The position numbers were made by a program, and so were the translations under genes. 64,000 nt of DNA from assembly GCA_002839315.1 (NCBI GenBank), contig PGXV01000012.1:62001-126000 (forward strand), read 5' to 3'. The number at the start of each line of letters is the position of its first letter. The first letter of the stretch is position 1. The notes under the pieces were generated by a model that saw only the letters and a program-made list of their open reading frames with translations, was not told the origin of the DNA and ran no database searches. Source of the DNA: Spirochaetae bacterium HGW-Spirochaetae-3. GTDB taxonomy: Bacteria; Spirochaetota; Spirochaetia; Treponematales; UBA12059. This document shows positions 23,061 through 30,496 of the stretch, piece by piece.

Positions 23061-23528
23061 ATGGATAGTAATGGATTGCAGCCCTTCTTCGACGCCGCCG
23101 GCGCCGTTTTCTCCCAGATGTTCGGCATCGACGCCAAGGCGGCGGCTCCCCGCGCGCTTGAAGGCGCCGAGAGCCATGAGTGGGAGATTTCCGGGCTGCT
23201 CGGCATAGCCGGGACCGCGCAGGGCGTCGTGGCCATGCGCTTTACCCTCGCGACCGTCGACGCGCTCCTCAAGGCTTCGGGAGTCGAGACGAGCGGCGAG
23301 CAGGACCGGCTAGCTACTGCGTCGGGGCTCGTCGCCGAGATGACGAACATCGTCTCGGGCAACGCCATAGGCGAATTCCCGGGGTTGAACCTGGAGATAT
23401 CGCCGCCCGTCGTGATCAAGGGCAAGAATCACCAGATCACCTGGCCGAAGATAGCCCCCGTAATCGCCACCGTATACGCTACGAAGCTAGGCGCCTTTGA
23501 GTTGGCCGTATGCTTCAACGGGAAATAG
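23061..23528 (+). CDS. cheX: CheX-type chemotaxis phosphatase
   Basis: A 155-residue protein of the CheC/CheX/FliY family, which removes phosphate from CheY-P. The key motif is 'GLVAEMTNIVSGNAIGEF' (about residues 93-110) with the Glu and Asn that act in catalysis (E-x2-N), and 'GTAQGVVAMRF' gives the beta strand before it. CheX is the usual CheY phosphatase in spirochaetes. No other chemotaxis gene is nearby. It is followed by the his leader 41 bp after its stop. Confidence 0.85.
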   Translation: MDSNGLQPFFDAAGAVFSQMFGIDAKAAAPRALEGAESHEWEISGLLGIAGTAQGVVAMRFTLATVDALLKASGVETSGEQDRLATASGLVAEMTNIVSGNAIGEFPGLNLEISPPVVIKGKNHQITWPKIAPVIATVYATKLGAFELAVCFNGK

Positions 23529-23532
23529 CGGC

Positions 23533-23560
23533 TTGACGAGCTTAGCCGATTGGATGTAGT
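23533..23560 (+). promoter_or_regulatory. Probable his operon promoter
   Basis: TTGACG (23533-23538) and TGTAGT (23555-23560) are 16 bp apart, a fair sigma70 match. The start of transcription would fall near 23567, two to three bases before the leader-peptide ATG at 23570. It lies just after the cheX stop. Confidence 0.45.
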
Positions 23561-23578
23561 GTTACTCCGATGAGTAAC
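23561..23578. promoter_or_regulatory. 18-bp perfect dyad over the his leader start
   Basis: GTTACTCCGATGAGTAAC: 7-bp arms around CGAT, with the leader ATG starting in the loop. It overlaps the predicted transcription start, a place typical for repressor operators, but could also fold in RNA. No regulator gene is beside it. Confidence 0.5.
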
Positions 23579-23653
23579 AAGCGATCGATACGGATTAACC
23601 ATCTCCATCATCACGGCCACGCCTACGCGGTCACGATGATCGTTATACCCTAG
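23570..23653 (+). CDS. hisL: Histidine leader peptide (attenuator)
   Basis: A 27-residue open frame, ATG to TAG, reading MSNKRSIRINHLHHHGHAYA and then VTMIVIP. Codons 11, 13, 14, 15 and 17 are His: five His in seven codons, directly before the his operon. Such a run is the hallmark of ribosome-stalling leader peptides that sense charged tRNA-His. There is no ribosome site; the likely transcript starts about three bases upstream, so it may be read as a leaderless message. The His codons lie in one arm of an RNA hairpin (23607-23640) and the stop codon touches the next one. Confidence 0.88.
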   Translation: MSNKRSIRINHLHHHGHAYAVTMIVIP

Positions 23654-23670
23654 GTTCCCGAAAGGGAACC
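23607..23670 (+). promoter_or_regulatory. Two hairpins of the his attenuator leader
   Basis: Hairpin one pairs 23607-23612 with 23635-23640 and, after a 2x2 mismatch, GGCC with GGUC; its 5' arm holds the last His codons. Hairpin two is a perfect GGTTCCC-GAAA-GGGAACC (23653-23670) starting at the leader stop codon. I could not settle by eye which segments form the alternative antiterminator. Confidence 0.6.
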
Positions 23671-23683
23671 GAACGGAACGACA

Positions 23684-23715
23684 CGCCGGCCGCCATGGCC
23701 GGCGTTTTCGTTTTT
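23684..23715 (+). terminator. Intrinsic terminator of the his attenuator
   Basis: CGCCGGCC (23684-23691) pairs perfectly with GGCCGGCG (23697-23704) around a 5-base loop, followed by TTTTCGTTTTT. It stands 76 bp before hisG and 31 bp after the leader stop, the normal place for a his attenuator. Stalling at His codons should prevent it from forming. Confidence 0.85.
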
Positions 23716-23790
23716 CCAGGGCTTTCGGGCCTTCGCGAGACGGACGCGGCCACGGGCGGCCAGGCTTCTATCTCGGAAGGAGCGAACGAT

Positions 23791-24660
23791 ATGGAACGTA
23801 AAGACGGGAATCTACGCCTGGCATTGCCCAAGGGCCGCATGCAGGAGGGCGTCCTGCGTCTCCTCTCGGAGGCGGGTATCGATATGAGGGCCGCCGAGCG
23901 GGACTATAGACCGGCCGCGGGCATCGACGGGCTCGACGTAAAGGTGCTCAAGCCCCAGAACATCATAGAGATGCTCGACGTAGGAAGCCGCGACCTCGGT
24001 TTCGCCGGGGCCGACTGGGTGGCCGAGCTCGGCATAGACCTCGTGGAGGTGCTGGATACCGGCCTCGATCCCGTACGCCTCGTGGCGGCCGCCCCGGCGT
24101 CTATACTCGAGGCGGGCAGGCTGCCCGCGCGTCGCCTCGTCGTAGCGAGCGAATACGAAGGTATAGCCAGGCGCTGGATAGCGGAGAAAGGCGTCGACGC
24201 GGAGTTCGTGCGCTCGTACGGAGCGACCGAGGTATTCCCGCCCGAGGACGCGGACTGCATCGTCGACAACACCGCGACCGGCTCGACGCTACGGGCCAAC
24301 GGCCTGGCGATCGTCGACGACGTGATGCGCTCGACGACGCGGCTGTACGCCAACAGGCGCGCGATGGAGGATCCGTCGAGGCGAGAGCGCATCGAGTGGT
24401 TCGCGATGCTGTGCGGTAGCGTACTCGCCGCGCGCGTACGCGTCATGCTCGAGGTCAACGTCGACGCGGAACGGCTCGAGGGGCTCATCGCCATATTGCC
24501 AGCGATGAAGGAGCCGACCGTGTCGAGGCTCATTGGCGACGCGGGCTTCGCCGTCAAGGTCGCCGCCCCACGGGCGTCATTGCCCTCGCTCCTTCCGGCC
24601 ATCCGCGCCAAGGGCGGAACGGGCATCATCATCACCCAGCCCTCCCAGATAGTGCCATGA
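23791..24660 (+). CDS. hisG: ATP phosphoribosyltransferase, long form HisG
   Basis: First enzyme of histidine synthesis: ATP plus PRPP to phosphoribosyl-ATP. The ATG at 23791 follows GGAAGGAG by 8 bases; an upward extension of the frame runs through the attenuator and is rejected. The 289-residue protein has 'LRLALPKGRMQEG' at the start, 'ADCIVDNTATGSTLRANGL' with the PRPP loop, and a C-terminal ACT-like domain of about 80 residues ending 'GIIITQPSQIVP', which marks the long form that works without HisZ and binds histidine for feedback control. The stop overlaps hisC (ATGA). Confidence 0.95.
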   Translation: MERKDGNLRLALPKGRMQEGVLRLLSEAGIDMRAAERDYRPAAGIDGLDVKVLKPQNIIEMLDVGSRDLGFAGADWVAELGIDLVEVLDTGLDPVRLVAAAPASILEAGRLPARRLVVASEYEGIARRWIAEKGVDAEFVRSYGATEVFPPEDADCIVDNTATGSTLRANGLAIVDDVMRSTTRLYANRRAMEDPSRRERIEWFAMLCGSVLAARVRVMLEVNVDAERLEGLIAILPAMKEPTVSRLIGDAGFAVKVAAPRASLPSLLPAIRAKGGTGIIITQPSQIVP

Positions 24661-25781
24661 CGATGAACGATACCGTCGACTCGGCTCCTCGGCCGTCGTC
24701 GCTGTCCCCGTGGATAGGGACGTCCGCCGCGTACACCCCGAGGCGGCCCGATCCGCGCGTCCGCTGGTTCCTGGACGCCAACGAGGGCCGTCCTTCGCCG
24801 GCCGTCGTCGCTACGATAATCGAGACGCTGTCCGGTTCCGCCCGGGGCGTCTATCGCTATCCGTCGTTCTACGAGCTCGAGGCCGTCATCGCGGCTACGT
24901 GGGGCGTCGACGCGGCGAGGGTCGTCGCGACCGCGGGAGGCGACGACGCGATAGGCCGCGTCGTCGCCTCCCGCCTCGCGCCCGAGGCCAAGATCCTCGT
25001 GCACGAGCCCGCGTTCGAGATGTTCGGCGCCTACGCCAGGTCCAGGGGCGGCATCACGCTCGGCATCCGCTGGATGGACGGCGAGGCCTTCCCTCTGGAA
25101 CAGACGATCGAGGCGATAGCGCGCTGTCCGTCGCTCGGGCTGGCTACCGTCGTGTCGCCGTCTAATCCGACCGGCGGAGTCGTCTCCGCGGACGACGCGC
25201 TGGCGGTCGCGGCCGCGTGCGCCGATAACGGCGCGGCGTTCCTGTTCGACGCGGCCTACGGAGAATTCGCCGACGACGATCCCAGCCCCCGCCTCGTGGC
25301 CGAAGGCTCCGCGTACGTCGTACGTAGCTTCTCCAAGGCGTACGGCCTCGCGGGGATGCGCATCGGCTACGCCATCGCGCCGGACGCGGGATCGGCCGCG
25401 GCGCTCCGTTCCTGCGGCATGCCGTACCCCAGCTCGGGACCGTCTTGCGCGGCCGCCATGGCGGCGCTGAACGACCGATCATCGATGCTTTCCGCCGTCG
25501 AGGCCGTTCGGGCCGAGCGATCCGCGATCGCCGGCCGCTTCCGCGCGCTCGGCGCCCGCGTCGCCGATTCAGGCGCCAACTTCGTCCTGGCGCGCGTACG
25601 CGACCCCGCCGGCCTCTCCGAGAGCATGGCGGATGCAGGCGTTGCCATCAGGACGTACGGCGGCCGCGACCTGCTCGCCGACGCCGTACGCGTCAGCTGC
25701 CCGTGCGACGACGAGGGCCTCGCCGTCGTCCTCGACGCCATTGACCGGGCGAAGGAGTATATAGTATGTGCGAAATCGTGA
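24657..25781 (+). CDS. hisC: Histidinol-phosphate aminotransferase HisC
   Basis: PLP enzyme for the step from imidazole acetol phosphate to histidinol phosphate, 374 residues. Class II aminotransferase landmarks: 'WFLDANEGRPSP' near the start, 'VVSPSNPTGGVVS' (about 165), 'FLFDAAYGEFAD' and 'VVRSFSKAYGLAGMRIGYA' with the PLP-binding Lys (about 228). 'VRVSC' near the end binds the carboxylate. It starts inside the hisG stop and overlaps hisB by 16 bases. Context makes HisC far more likely than another aminotransferase. Confidence 0.93.
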   Translation: MTMNDTVDSAPRPSSLSPWIGTSAAYTPRRPDPRVRWFLDANEGRPSPAVVATIIETLSGSARGVYRYPSFYELEAVIAATWGVDAARVVATAGGDDAIGRVVASRLAPEAKILVHEPAFEMFGAYARSRGGITLGIRWMDGEAFPLEQTIEAIARCPSLGLATVVSPSNPTGGVVSADDALAVAAACADNGAAFLFDAAYGEFADDDPSPRLVAEGSAYVVRSFSKAYGLAGMRIGYAIAPDAGSAAALRSCGMPYPSSGPSCAAAMAALNDRSSMLSAVEAVRAERSAIAGRFRALGARVADSGANFVLARVRDPAGLSESMADAGVAIRTYGGRDLLADAVRVSCPCDDEGLAVVLDAIDRAKEYIVCAKS

Positions 25782-26368
25782 CTCCGCGTTCGGCCATCGT
25801 CGAACGCCTCACCAAGGAAACGAACGTACGCGTAGCGTTGTCTCTCGTCCCGGGACCCGTCGACGTCAGGACCGGCGTCGGCTTCCTCGATCATCTGCTG
25901 TCGAGCCTCGCCTTCCACGGCGGCTTTAGCCTGTCCATGACCTGCGACGGTGACCTGCGGGTCGACGATCACCACAGCGCCGAGGACTGCGCGCTGGCGC
26001 TCGGCGCGGCGCTCAGGCAGGCCTTGGGGGATAAGGCCGGCATCCGCCGCTTCGGTTCGGCGTTCGCGCCTCTGGACGAGTCGCTGGCGAGGGCCGTCGT
26101 CGACCTCTCGGGTAGGCCCTGCGCCGTCGTCGACCTGGGCCTGACGCGAGAGGCCATAGGCGGCCTGGCCTGTGAAAACGTGACCCACGTCGTTACCAGC
26201 CTCGCGAACGCGGCGATGGCGACGATACACCTGGACGTGCTACGCGGGGCTAACGACCACCATAGGGCCGAGGCGGCCTTCAAGGCGCTCGCGCTGGCCT
26301 TACGAGAGGCCGTGACGGTAGACGGCGCCTATGGTTCGGCCGTGCCGAGCGCGAAAGGGACGCTATGA
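25766..26368 (+). CDS. hisB: Imidazoleglycerol-phosphate dehydratase HisB
   Basis: Single-domain dehydratase, 200 residues; no histidinol-phosphatase domain is fused, unlike E. coli HisB. The two manganese-binding repeats are 'DDHHSAEDC' (about residue 70) and 'NDHHRAEAAFKAL' (about 170), with 'GFLDHLLSSLAFHGG' near the start. ATG at 25766 follows AAGGAG. It overlaps hisC by 16 bases and hisH-hisF by 4. The phosphatase for the next step must be encoded elsewhere. Confidence 0.95.
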   Translation: MCEIVTPRSAIVERLTKETNVRVALSLVPGPVDVRTGVGFLDHLLSSLAFHGGFSLSMTCDGDLRVDDHHSAEDCALALGAALRQALGDKAGIRRFGSAFAPLDESLARAVVDLSGRPCAVVDLGLTREAIGGLACENVTHVVTSLANAAMATIHLDVLRGANDHHRAEAAFKALALALREAVTVDGAYGSAVPSAKGTL

Positions 26369-27885
26369 GTCCTACCGGTCTGGAAGTCGTCATAGTCGAC
26401 ACGGGACGGTCCAACGCGGCCAGCCTCGCCGCCGCGCTGGAGAGGGCGGGCGCCAGGCCCGTGCTCAGCACCGATCCGTCCGCCGTCAAGGCCGCCCGGT
26501 TCGCGGTACTGCCGGGCGTCGGCGCATTCGGCGCGGTCATGGATAGGCTACGGGCCATGGGCGTCGACGAGGCGCTCAAGGAGCGCGTAGCGCGCGGCGC
26601 CCCGACTCTCGGCGCCTGCCTGGGTATGCAACTGTTCTTCGAGTCGAGCGAGGAATCGCCCGGCGTCGAGGGCATCGCCGCCATACCGGGCTCTATTACC
26701 GCGTACGGCCCGGACGTCCGATCTCCTCAGTTCGGCTGGAACCGCCTGACGCTACCGGTACCCGCCACGGGCGGCATGCTCGCCGGATCGGCGGATGCCG
26801 GCGGGGCTCCCTCCGGGTCTCCCTCCGGGTCTCCCTCCGGGTCTCCCTCCGGGTCTCCCTGCGTATATTTCGCCAATTCGTTCAAGCTCGACGAAGCGCC
26901 GGACGGCTGGGCCGTCGCGGTCGCCGACTACGGCGCGCCGTTCGTCGCCGCGATAGAGCGCGGGCCGATACTATTGTGCCAATTCCATCCCGAGCTGTCC
27001 GGGGCCTGGGGGCAAGCGCTGCTGGAACGTTGGTTGGCAGTCGGCTCAGGCGCGTCGCCTTCGGCTAGCGTAGCCCGTATATCGTCTGCGCCGTCGACGA
27101 CGGCCGTGAAACGGACGACGGCCGTGAAACGGACGACGTTGCCTAGGATCATCCCCTGTCTCGACGTGTCCGGCGGCCGGGTCGTCAAGGGTGTGAAATT
27201 CCAGGAATTACGCGACTCGGGCGATCCCGCCGACCTCGCGTCCCGGTACGAGGCGTCGGGAGCCGACGAGATAGTCATGCTCGATATAAGCGCGGGCATC
27301 GACGGCCGCGATACCGCCGTCGAGACCGTCCGCGCCGTCAGGCGTAGGATAGGCATACCGTTATGCGTAGGTGGTGGCGTCCGATGCCTCGCCGACGCCG
27401 AGCGTATCCTCGAGGCGGGAGCCGACAAGGTGTCCCTCAATTCGAGGGGATACCGCGATCCGTCCCTGCTGTCGGATATCGCGCGCGAATTCGGCCGCCA
27501 GTGTTGCGTCGCCGCCATAGACGCCGCCAGGAGAGACGGGACGCCGATCGTCGTACTGGACGCGGGGAGGACCGAGACCGCGACGCCGGTTACGGATTGG
27601 ATACGCCGGGCCGTAGACGCCGGGGCCGGCGAGATACTGCTGACGAGCCGCGACCGCGACGGTACACGCTCCGGCTACGACCTGGATCTGCTGCGCTCGG
27701 CCTGCGCCGTGGCTCCCGGTACCCCGGTCATAGCGTCGGGCGGAGCCGCCAGTCCCGAGCAGATACTGGAAGGCCTCCGGGCCGGCGCCGACGCGGCGTT
27801 GCTCGCCGGCGCGCTCCATGATGGATCTTTGACCATATCCGCCATTAAGGATTACATGCGCCAGTGCGGCGCGGAGGTACGCTGA
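26365..27885 (+). CDS. hisHF: HisH-HisF fusion, imidazole glycerol phosphate synthase
   Basis: A 506-residue fusion of the glutaminase and cyclase, like yeast HIS7. HisH part: nucleophile Cys85 in 'GACLGMQLFF', His208 and Glu210 in 'CQFHPELSG', oxyanion strand near 'LPGVGAFG'. Residues 150-165 hold four SGSP-type units coded by a 12-bp tandem repeat, absent from standard HisH. A linker (about 229-259) carries 'TTAVKRTTAVKRTT' from an 18-bp repeat. HisF part: Asp267 in 'IIPCLDVSGGRVVKG', second Asp in 'AAIDAARRDG', 'GEILLTSRDRDGTRSGYD' and 'VIASGGA'. Both halves keep their catalytic residues. It starts in the hisB stop and its stop touches hisA. Confidence 0.95.
   Translation: MSPTGLEVVIVDTGRSNAASLAAALERAGARPVLSTDPSAVKAARFAVLPGVGAFGAVMDRLRAMGVDEALKERVARGAPTLGACLGMQLFFESSEESPGVEGIAAIPGSITAYGPDVRSPQFGWNRLTLPVPATGGMLAGSADAGGAPSGSPSGSPSGSPSGSPCVYFANSFKLDEAPDGWAVAVADYGAPFVAAIERGPILLCQFHPELSGAWGQALLERWLAVGSGASPSASVARISSAPSTTAVKRTTAVKRTTLPRIIPCLDVSGGRVVKGVKFQELRDSGDPADLASRYEASGADEIVMLDISAGIDGRDTAVETVRAVRRRIGIPLCVGGGVRCLADAERILEAGADKVSLNSRGYRDPSLLSDIAREFGRQCCVAAIDAARRDGTPIVVLDAGRTETATPVTDWIRRAVDAGAGEILLTSRDRDGTRSGYDLDLLRSACAVAPGTPVIASGGAASPEQILEGLRAGADAALLAGALHDGSLTISAIKDYMRQCGAEVR
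26807..26860 (+). repeat. 12-bp tandem repeat inside hisH
   Basis: Four perfect copies of CTCCCTCCGGGT (26807-26854) plus a partial fifth. It codes for Ser-Gly-Ser-Pro-type units in the HisH domain. Since 12 is a multiple of three, copy-number slippage would lengthen or shorten the loop without breaking the frame. Confidence 0.95.
27097..27138 (+). repeat. 18-bp tandem repeat in the HisH-HisF linker
   Basis: Two perfect copies of ACGACGGCCGTGAAACGG (27097-27132) and six bases of a third. It codes the 'TTAVKR' units of the linker between the two enzyme domains and is also in frame. Confidence 0.95.
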
Positions 27886-29240
27886 TGCTCATTCCTTCTA
27901 TCGATATCATGGGCGGCCGAGCCGTCCAGCTCGTCGGTGGCGAACGTTTCGAGTTGGACGGAGGCGATCCACGGGAGCTGGCCGAGCGCTTCTCCGTGTT
28001 CGGAGAGATAGCCGTCGTCGACCTTGACGCCGCGCTCGGCAAGGGATCCAACCTGGAACTGGTAGCCGCTATAGCGTCGCGTTACCCATGCCGCGTAGGC
28101 GGCGGCGTTCGCGACGAATCGACGATGAGGCGGCTCCTAGACGCCGGGGCGCGCTCCGTGATGGTCGGCACCAAGGCGAATCCGGAGTTCCTGTCGGCGT
28201 TTCCGAGGGACCGCCTGATCGCGGCGCTCGACTTCAAGCGCGGCATAGTGATGGCCGAGGGCTGGAAGGCGAGCACCGGCGCTACGGTGACCGACAAGGC
28301 CGCCGAGCTGGCGCCGTTCGTAGGCGGATTCCTCGTCACCGCGATCGATATCGAGGGCTCGCTGTCCGGCATCGACATGGACGCGTCCCGCGCGCTCGTA
28401 GAGTCGATACGCGCGGCCGGCTTCGACGGAGCGCTGACGATGGCCGGCGGGGTGACTTCCGCGGCCGAGGTCGCGGCCCTCGACGCGATGGGCGTCGACG
28501 CGCAGGTCGGCATGGCGCTGTACAAGGGCGTCCTCGAACCCTCTGACGCATTCGCCGCGTGCCTATCCTCCGACCGGCCCGACGGGCTATGGCCGACGGT
28601 CGTCTGCGACGAGTCCGGCGTGGCTCTCGGGCTCGTGTACTCGGACGCGGAGAGCCTGCGCGCCGCGCTGACCGAGCGCGCCGGTATATATCGCTCGCGC
28701 AGGCGCGGCCTGTGGCGGAAGGGCGAGTCGAGCGGCGATCGCCAGATCCTCGTGCGCGTCGACGCGGATTGCGACCGGGACGCGCTTCGATTCACCGTAC
28801 GCCAGTCGGGCGCGGGGTTCTGCCACCGCGGCACCAGGACCTGCTTCGGCGCGACCGGGGCGGACGGATTCGGCGGCGACGAGCGCGGGTTCCCCCTCTT
28901 GTCCCGGACTACGGCGAGGCGCCTCGCCGAGGTCGCCTCTAGCGAGGCGCCCGCGGGTTCGTATACGGCGAGGCTCTTTACCGAGCCGGGGCTGCTCGCC
29001 GCTAAGATAGCCGAGGAGGCGGCCGAGCTGTGCGAGGCGAAGGGCCCGGAGCGATCCGCCGAGGAGGCCGCGGACCTCGTATACTTCGCGTCGGTGAAGC
29101 TCGCCCGCGAGGGAGCCAGCCTCGCCGACGTCGAGCGCGTGCTCGATAGGCGCGCGATGCGCGTGACCAGGCGGCCAGGCAACGCCAAGGCGCCGTACCA
29201 GGAGAAAGGGAACGAACCGTGGAAAATCGGTATACACTGA
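27885..29240 (+). CDS. hisAIE: HisA-HisI-HisE trifunctional fusion
   Basis: A 451-residue protein carrying three pathway steps. Residues 1-230: HisA isomerase, a (beta/alpha)8 barrel with Asp7 in 'IPSIDIMGG' and 'VTAIDIEGSLSGID'. Residues about 235-322: HisI cyclohydrolase with 'GLWRKGESSGDRQ', metal site 'DADCD' (293-297) and Cys313/Cys320 in 'GFCHRGTRTCFG'. Residues about 362-432: HisE pyrophosphohydrolase with 'KIAEEAAELCEA' and 'EEAADLVYFASVKL'. The ATG at 27885 shares a base with the hisHF stop. HisI-HisE fusion is common; joining HisA to it is unusual. Order of domains is not the order of reactions (E, I, A). Confidence 0.92.
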   Translation: MLIPSIDIMGGRAVQLVGGERFELDGGDPRELAERFSVFGEIAVVDLDAALGKGSNLELVAAIASRYPCRVGGGVRDESTMRRLLDAGARSVMVGTKANPEFLSAFPRDRLIAALDFKRGIVMAEGWKASTGATVTDKAAELAPFVGGFLVTAIDIEGSLSGIDMDASRALVESIRAAGFDGALTMAGGVTSAAEVAALDAMGVDAQVGMALYKGVLEPSDAFAACLSSDRPDGLWPTVVCDESGVALGLVYSDAESLRAALTERAGIYRSRRRGLWRKGESSGDRQILVRVDADCDRDALRFTVRQSGAGFCHRGTRTCFGATGADGFGGDERGFPLLSRTTARRLAEVASSEAPAGSYTARLFTEPGLLAAKIAEEAAELCEAKGPERSAEEAADLVYFASVKLAREGASLADVERVLDRRAMRVTRRPGNAKAPYQEKGNEPWKIGIH

Positions 29241-30496
29241 GGCGCGTCGGCCTTGACGGAATAGGCCGCAAGGGCAGGCCAGCCGACGATCCGGCCTGCG
29301 AGACGAGCGTCAGGCGCATCATGGACGACGTGCAGGACGGCGGCGAGGCCGCGCTCGCCCGGTGGGCCGCGGAACTCGACGGTAATTCCGGTAGGCTCTG
29401 GTACGGGCCGGACGATTTCGCGGCGGCGCTGGAATCGGCGCCCGCCGCCGAGCGGGCGGCCCTGGAGCGGGCTGCCGGCAGGGTAGGAGCCTTCGCCGCC
29501 ACGCAGCTGGCCTCGCTCTGTTCCGTAGACGTGGCGGTACCGGGCGGCAGGGCCGGTCACCAGGCTCTGCCCGTGGAGCGCGCCGGATGCTACGTGCCGG
29601 GGGGACGCTATCCCTTGCCGTCTACCGTGCTGATGACCGCCCTCGTAGCGAGGACGGCCGGCGTCGAGGACGTCGCGGTCGCCTGCCCCAAGCCTTCTCC
29701 CCTGATACTGGCGGCCTGCGCCGTCGCGGGCGCGGATACGTTGCTCGCGGCGGGAGGCGCCCAGGCTATCGCCGCGTTCGCGTACGGCGCGGGGCCCCTC
29801 TCTCCGCGGGACGTCATCGTCGGCCCCGGCAACCGCTACGTCGCCGCGGCCAAGCGCCTCGCCCAGGCGACGGTACGGACCGACGCGCCCGCCGGCCCGA
29901 GCGAGCTGCTCGTCGTAGCCGACGGGTCGGCCGACCCGATAACGGTCGCCTGGGACCTGCTCGCCCAGGCCGAGCACGATCCTGACGCCGTGCCGGCCCT
30001 CGCGGCATCGTCGGAATCGGTCGCGCTGGCAGTAGAGCGTGCCCTGGCGGTATGCCTCGAGGATCTAGCGGCTCAGAGGCCCGAGTCGGCCAGGATAGCC
30101 AGGGCGGCCCTGGAAAACGGCTGGGCCTTCGTTTCTTCCGATCGGGCGGCCCTGGCGGAGGCCGCGGACCGCTTCGCCCCCGAGCACCTGGAGCTCGCGC
30201 TCGCCGACGCCCGCGGTTTCTCGGACTCGTGCCGGCACGCCGGGGCGCTGTTCATCGGGAGCTCGAGCGCCGAGGTTTTCGGCGACTACGGGGCCGGGCC
30301 GAACCACACGCTACCGACGTCGGGACGTGCGAGATCCTCGGGAGGGTTATCCGTATTCGATTTCCTGAGGATCAGGACGTGGCTCGAGATCGACCGGCCG
30401 GACGCGGCGCTCGTCGGGGATACCGTCGCCCTGGCGAACGCCGAGGGCCTGTTCGCGCATGCGAGGTCGGCCGCGCGGCGCTCTCCTGGTGCATGA
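29219..30496 (+). CDS. hisD: Histidinol dehydrogenase HisD
   Basis: Zinc enzyme for the last two oxidations, histidinol to histidine. The 425-residue protein starts at GTG 29219, overlapping the previous gene by 22 bases. Conserved parts: 'ERAGCYVPGGRYPLPSTVLM' (about 121-140), 'AGGAQAIAAFAYG', 'DAPAGPSELLVVAD', zinc ligands in 'QAEHDPDAV', catalytic pair in 'FAPEHLEL' and 'GAGPNHTLPT'. It ends the operon; no clear terminator follows in the 158-bp gap, only an AT-rich promoter-like TATATT at 30593. Confidence 0.96.
   Translation: MENRYTLRRVGLDGIGRKGRPADDPACETSVRRIMDDVQDGGEAALARWAAELDGNSGRLWYGPDDFAAALESAPAAERAALERAAGRVGAFAATQLASLCSVDVAVPGGRAGHQALPVERAGCYVPGGRYPLPSTVLMTALVARTAGVEDVAVACPKPSPLILAACAVAGADTLLAAGGAQAIAAFAYGAGPLSPRDVIVGPGNRYVAAAKRLAQATVRTDAPAGPSELLVVADGSADPITVAWDLLAQAEHDPDAVPALAASSESVALAVERALAVCLEDLAAQRPESARIARAALENGWAFVSSDRAALAEAADRFAPEHLELALADARGFSDSCRHAGALFIGSSSAEVFGDYGAGPNHTLPTSGRARSSGGLSVFDFLRIRTWLEIDRPDAALVGDTVALANAEGLFAHARSAARRSPGA

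Follow-up and report, generated by a model that had tools for sequence, protein, structure and literature searches.

The window, the 64-kb stretch of DNA analysed here, carries a full his operon behind cheX, and the sequence between them holds a promoter and a short histidine-rich reading frame. The genes and the elements of expression are as follows.

23061-23528, + strand: cheX, the upstream neighbour
23533-23538, + strand: -35 hexamer TTGACG (TTGAC invariant within the genus)
23557-23562, + strand: -10 hexamer TAGTGT, after a spacer of 18 nt, ending 7 nt 5′ of the leader ATG
23570-23653, + strand: leader peptide ORF MSNKRSIRINHLHHHGHAYAVTMIVIP*, 27 codons, predicted leaderless, without a Shine-Dalgarno sequence
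23600-23620, + strand: regulatory codons CAT CTC CAT CAT CAC GGC CAC, five His in seven
23775-23782, + strand: Shine-Dalgarno sequence of hisG, GGAAGGAG, invariant within the genus
23791-24660, + strand: hisG (PF01634 and PF08029)
24657-25781, + strand: hisC (aminotransferase)
25766-26368, + strand: hisB (IGPD)
26365-27885, + strand: hisH-hisF fusion (GATase and His_biosynth)
27864-29240, + strand: hisA-hisI-hisE fusion (His_biosynth, PRA-CH, and PRA-PH)
29219-30496, + strand: hisD

A sequence-only reading of this region had proposed a frame with five His in seven codons ahead of hisG, a good hisG ribosome site, and a his operon downstream. The frame is correct to the base, its histidines being codons 11, 13, 14, 15, and 17 of the leader peptide; the ribosome site lies 5′ of the hisG start at the position listed; and the domains of all six his genes or gene fusions were identified. 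The region marked in that reading begins at 23533, the first base of the -35 hexamer. We note that the hisHF fusion is collinear in two further loci (L003 and L004).

The leader transcript is predicted to form four structures.

23607-23640, + strand: 1:2 hairpin over the His codons (anti-antiterminator), -12.8 kcal/mol fold
23627-23693, + strand: antiterminator 2:3, enclosing the stop-codon hairpin
23653-23670, + strand: stop-codon hairpin GGTTCCC-GAAA-GGGAACC, present in both states
23677-23712, + strand, with T-run UUUUCGUUUUU to 23715: intrinsic terminator 3:4, core 23683-23691/23697-23705

The hairpins at 23607-23640 and 23653-23670 fold exactly as the sequence-only reading had claimed, and folding also bears out its strong terminator with T-run, at 23677-23715. 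The elements it named are thus real; what it overlooked are the promoter and the antiterminator (23627-23644 with 23677-23693). The latter pairs 23627-23632 with 23688-23693 (GCGGUC:GGCCGC) and 23634-23644 with 23677-23685. The stop-codon hairpin is nested inside the antiterminator and hence fits either state, which rules it out as the switch.

The fold of 23533-23720 is more stable than all of 200 dinucleotide shuffles (z = -4.7), with the qualification that its GTTACTC part is probably 5′ of the transcription start and hence outside the RNA. This heptamer belongs to an inverted repeat, GTTACTC-CGAT-GAGTAAC (23563-23578), that spans the predicted transcription start and the leader ATG and is also found in locus L087; we set it aside as an element, since it is not kept in the genus and is partly upstream of the predicted start. 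In folding of RNA from 23612 with the terminator 3′ arm absent, the minimum free energy structure is the antiterminator (-33.6 kcal/mol). Once the 3′ arm is included, the terminator is favoured at equilibrium in every state that has both arms, and in this model the switch must therefore be kinetic, which resembles known attenuators. An intermediate without any ribosome also favours the antiterminator (-37.9), so that in the absence of translation either state might be the default; the dependence of the antiterminator on ribosome position is a prediction of the folding model.

Some his attenuators in other bacteria act at translation (PMC9413887), and an alternative structure might here mask the hisG ribosome site. 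We regard this as most improbable: the 3:4 hairpin has a T-run, ends 60 nt 5′ of the hisG Shine-Dalgarno sequence, and leaves GGAAGGAG outside.

Clusters of at least five His in seven codons occur at three places in the six frames of the 64-kb window, so His density alone is weak evidence; the leader cluster rises above chance because it is conserved in relatives. Five congeneric metagenome-assembled genomes (SZUA-370, MM_PW_MetaG.mb.34, USDV_maxbin.089, HGW-Spirochaetae-7, and ZodW_maxbin.191, labelled Spirochaetes or Spirochaetota) encode HLHHHGH at matching codons, 131-140 nt 5′ of hisG. Across the six congeners, leader codons 4-10 are variable with their count fixed, and the residues encoded by codons 11-17 are unchanged. 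The terminator structure is the same throughout the genus, with nearly all pairs retained (98.8% of cells paired; 98.6% for the 1:2 hairpin). The helices are nearly invariant, and the single compensatory change in the genus is a U-A to C-G replacement in the stop-codon hairpin of L002. Sequence that is both coding and paired can owe its conservation to either role.

The MIV(I/L)P motif of the peptide C-terminus is retained in the genus, as might be expected if the main role were in trans, with the terminated RNA, the His-rich peptide, or both acting elsewhere and attenuation in cis a side effect or an addition. There is precedent in rnTrpL/peTrpL, from a leaderless attenuator RNA in S. meliloti (PMC7298713). 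The MIV(I/L)P codons are, however, those of paired segment 2, which accounts for their conservation, and the C-terminus is not retained beyond the genus and its close kin; a main role in trans thus appears very unlikely.

The wider comparison took in 37 leaders of spirochaete hisG genes, all with His clusters. At the equivalent position, peptides at the level of the order include LHHHGHH, HHHHGHH, and HHHHHGYS; MKRITMNHHHHHGYSSRGA is borne by a cultured, free-living member, which we take to be, putatively, Treponema caldarium H1. A strong intrinsic terminator starts 39-70 nt past the last His codon in 36 of the 37, the exception (L094) having a hairpin with a poor T-run. The sequence-only reading had suggested asking whether His codons and terminator co-occur in relatives: They do so in six of six members of the genus and in these 36 of 37 spirochaete leaders.

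The terminator follows cheX and precedes hisG, all on one strand, which invites a simpler explanation: that it merely ends cheX transcription and that the His-rich frame is due to chance or to G+C content. The equally dense His clusters, three in the window, are in keeping with this. Yet the leader is separated from cheX by a near-consensus promoter, which makes the transcript that starts at the leader the one on which the terminator acts. Many genera with differing upstream sequence, moreover, have retained the His clusters, the terminator, and the spacing. This explanation, too, has very little probability.

In the spirochaete leaders, the segment that separates the His codons from the terminator can base-pair with the terminator 5′ arm. 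This pairing exceeds that of dinucleotide shuffles when one sequence per genus is combined (P = 9e-6, Fisher), while single-locus shuffle tests are mostly nonsignificant, the window's own giving P = 0.19. In the more telling test, of co-variation, helices formed by segments from the same genus are stronger than those from swaps between genera (P = 0.00015, 23 genera); both the shuffle and the cross-pairing tests take genera as independent. The matched pairs differ in sequence: GCGGUCG:CGGCCGC in the window's family, and GGAGCCG:CGGCUCU, AGCCGG:CCGGCU, and GAGUCCA:UGGACUC elsewhere. For the 1:2 hairpin, order-wide cross-pairing is weak (P = 0.036).

Leaders of this kind are present in families f1, f4, f5, and part of f3, all of the same order, and in two f13 genomes of the same class. 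None stood directly 5′ of hisG in most f3 genomes sampled or in the phylum's other classes; the search covered the region upstream of hisG, and leaders 5′ of other first genes would escape it. The hisG tree has two far-apart lineages within one spirochaete order, both with such leaders. The lineage of f1 and f4 groups with Myxococcota, Planctomycetota, and Pseudomonadota types, and that of f5 and f3 is separate, on a long branch, hinting that his genes may have been replaced or transferred.

A second feature common to these leaders concerns where the transcript is predicted to begin. In 36 of the 37 spirochaete leaders, the -10 hexamer of the best sigma70-like promoter ends 6-10 nt 5′ of an in-frame start, compared with 6%-8% for the same starts behind shuffled upstream DNA. 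The E. coli hisL promoter is not recovered by the simple promoter score and so provides no control for this gap measure. The promoters are near-consensus, with a median score of 15.5 versus 11.2 in shuffles, and sequences resembling a Shine-Dalgarno precede one of 36 leader starts, as against 28 of the 43 long ORFs of the window. If transcription starts 7 nt past the -10 hexamer, the 5′ end falls on the leader start codon or at most 4 nt before it; in the window the predicted start is 23569/23570. The leader ORF is thus strongly predicted to be leaderless.

These features are best read as transcription attenuation mediated by the ribosome, through which the his operon would sense charged tRNA-His; we give this reading a probability of about 0.88. 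The sequence-only reading had likewise proposed ribosome-mediated attenuation, and its proposal gains support from the conservation of leader and terminator and from the co-variation of the antiterminator between genera. We infer leader translation, the transcription start, the starvation response, and the order of events, which may be as follows. RNA polymerase would start on the leader AUG or no more than one nucleotide away, and a 70S ribosome would initiate at this 5′-terminal AUG and trail the polymerase. With ample histidine, the ribosome would pass the His codons, reach the stop, and cover segment 2 (about 23627-23644); the terminator at 23677-23715 would then form, and transcription would end short of hisG. 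With little charged tRNA-His, the ribosome would stall at 23600-23620, covering segment 1 and freeing segment 2, which could pair with the terminator 5′ arm before the 3′ arm is made. With the antiterminator formed, polymerase would continue into hisGCB-HF-AIE-D. Most likely, the his genes are expressed only when histidine runs low.

Histidine or tRNA-His could instead be read directly, without leader translation, by a T-box or another leader that senses a ligand or protein. T-boxes do occur in the order, and the only T-box match in the window's own genome precedes thrS. But positions 23401-23900 match no Rfam family, T-box (RF00230) and His_leader included, with no match to either model in front of the his operon in the window, and a scan of the whole window at the gathering score returned only a tmRNA. 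Direct sensing would also leave the His codons, the reading frame, and the leaderless start unexplained, and we consider it exceedingly improbable. The match 5′ of thrS (contig C6, 26219-26463) is a T-box-like element of 80 bits, below the gathering score; single T-box matches were found in 37 of 58 relatives.

With RF00514 (His_leader), no match above the cut-off was found in the window region or in the 58 relatives, and the E. coli control was matched. One subthreshold match, in genome G007, was rejected as a terminator after unrelated genes. By its predicted structure, the window element would work like a his attenuator that lies outside the RF00514 sequence family and differs by its leaderless start. 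With the E. coli and Salmonella his leader it shares a short ORF bearing a run of His codons, a terminator before hisG, a mutually exclusive antiterminator, and, as predicted here, control of the whole his operon. In contrast, its His codons are fewer and interrupted (HLHHHGH), and it has one antiterminator, which encloses the stop-codon hairpin. E. coli hisL (51 nt, MTRVQFKHHHHHHHPD*) has a 5′ UTR with a Shine-Dalgarno sequence, whereas the window leader sits on its promoter and is predicted to be leaderless, with no such sequence.

Leader-peptide attenuation of his genes is described for Proteobacteria and Firmicutes, in the latter by comparative genomics (PMC2965389; PMC9413887). The Firmicutes cases are from the Bacillus cereus group, Peptostreptococcaceae, and Erysipelotrichales (PMC9413887), and in bacilli such attenuators also precede hisS/hisZ (PMC2965389). 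Like the window element, they have three to five tandem His codons with attenuator, terminator, and antiterminator hairpins and were found by genome comparison; they belong to another phylum, and the likeness is that of their published descriptions. Leaderless leader peptides are described for Sinorhizobium meliloti trpL (PMC7298713; PMC10117765) and Corynebacterium glutamicum ilvBNC (PMC11857589). In these, transcription starts on the regulatory ORF's own AUG, and a terminator precedes the biosynthetic gene, as in the window, where the start is predicted from promoter position; the amino acids and phyla are different. We found no report of a his attenuator in spirochaetes in a literature of mostly open papers, although a 2010 survey by Lopatovskaya et al. 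(cited in PMC4833913) could include some. The window would thus extend classical leader-peptide attenuation to a phylum from which we know of no report, beside the use of a T-box for thrS. The design appears uniform, with the sensing ORF predicted at the 5′ end of the transcript, and leaderless 70S initiation is a plausible common starting point for the coupling of translation and transcription in attenuators. Models based on enterobacterial his leaders miss most such elements.

Similar leaders were seen in other phyla. Among non-spirochaete hisG loci (L006-L080), 29 of 34 His-rich leaders are leaderless by promoter position, and 22 of 34 have a terminator by our rule. They come from Planctomycetota (Phycisphaerae), Myxococcota, Pseudomonadota, and single metagenome-assembled genomes of other phyla, and several of their terminators share a ACGCCGGC core.

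Between the first terminator and hisG, 11 of 36 leaders have a second intrinsic terminator (L087, L088, L089, L091, L092, L093, L096, L099, L101, L102, and L138); the window has none. In these tandem leaders, the second terminator's 5′ arm is complementary to the 3′ arm of its predecessor, with co-variation between the two (P = 0.0015 over all, 0.005 over seven), suggesting a chained attenuator. On balance we lean toward the view that leaderless His leader-peptide attenuation is widespread and little recognised, being shared by at least Spirochaetota, Planctomycetota (Phycisphaerae), Myxococcota, and others, with the sensing ORF as the 5′ end of the transcript, and that some spirochaetes have extended it to a two-terminator chain with partner-exchanging arms.

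For other amino acids, no trpE leaders were found in relatives under the leaderless rule, and the window's genome has neither a trpE match nor a leaderless leader of the following kind at its own ilvB. In a relative from the same taxonomic order (genome G033), ilvB is preceded on the minus strand, at about 3535-3350, by an Ile-rich leader, MAVSARNGIIIISSIIITPGMMKEE, that is leaderless by promoter position and is followed by a strong terminator.
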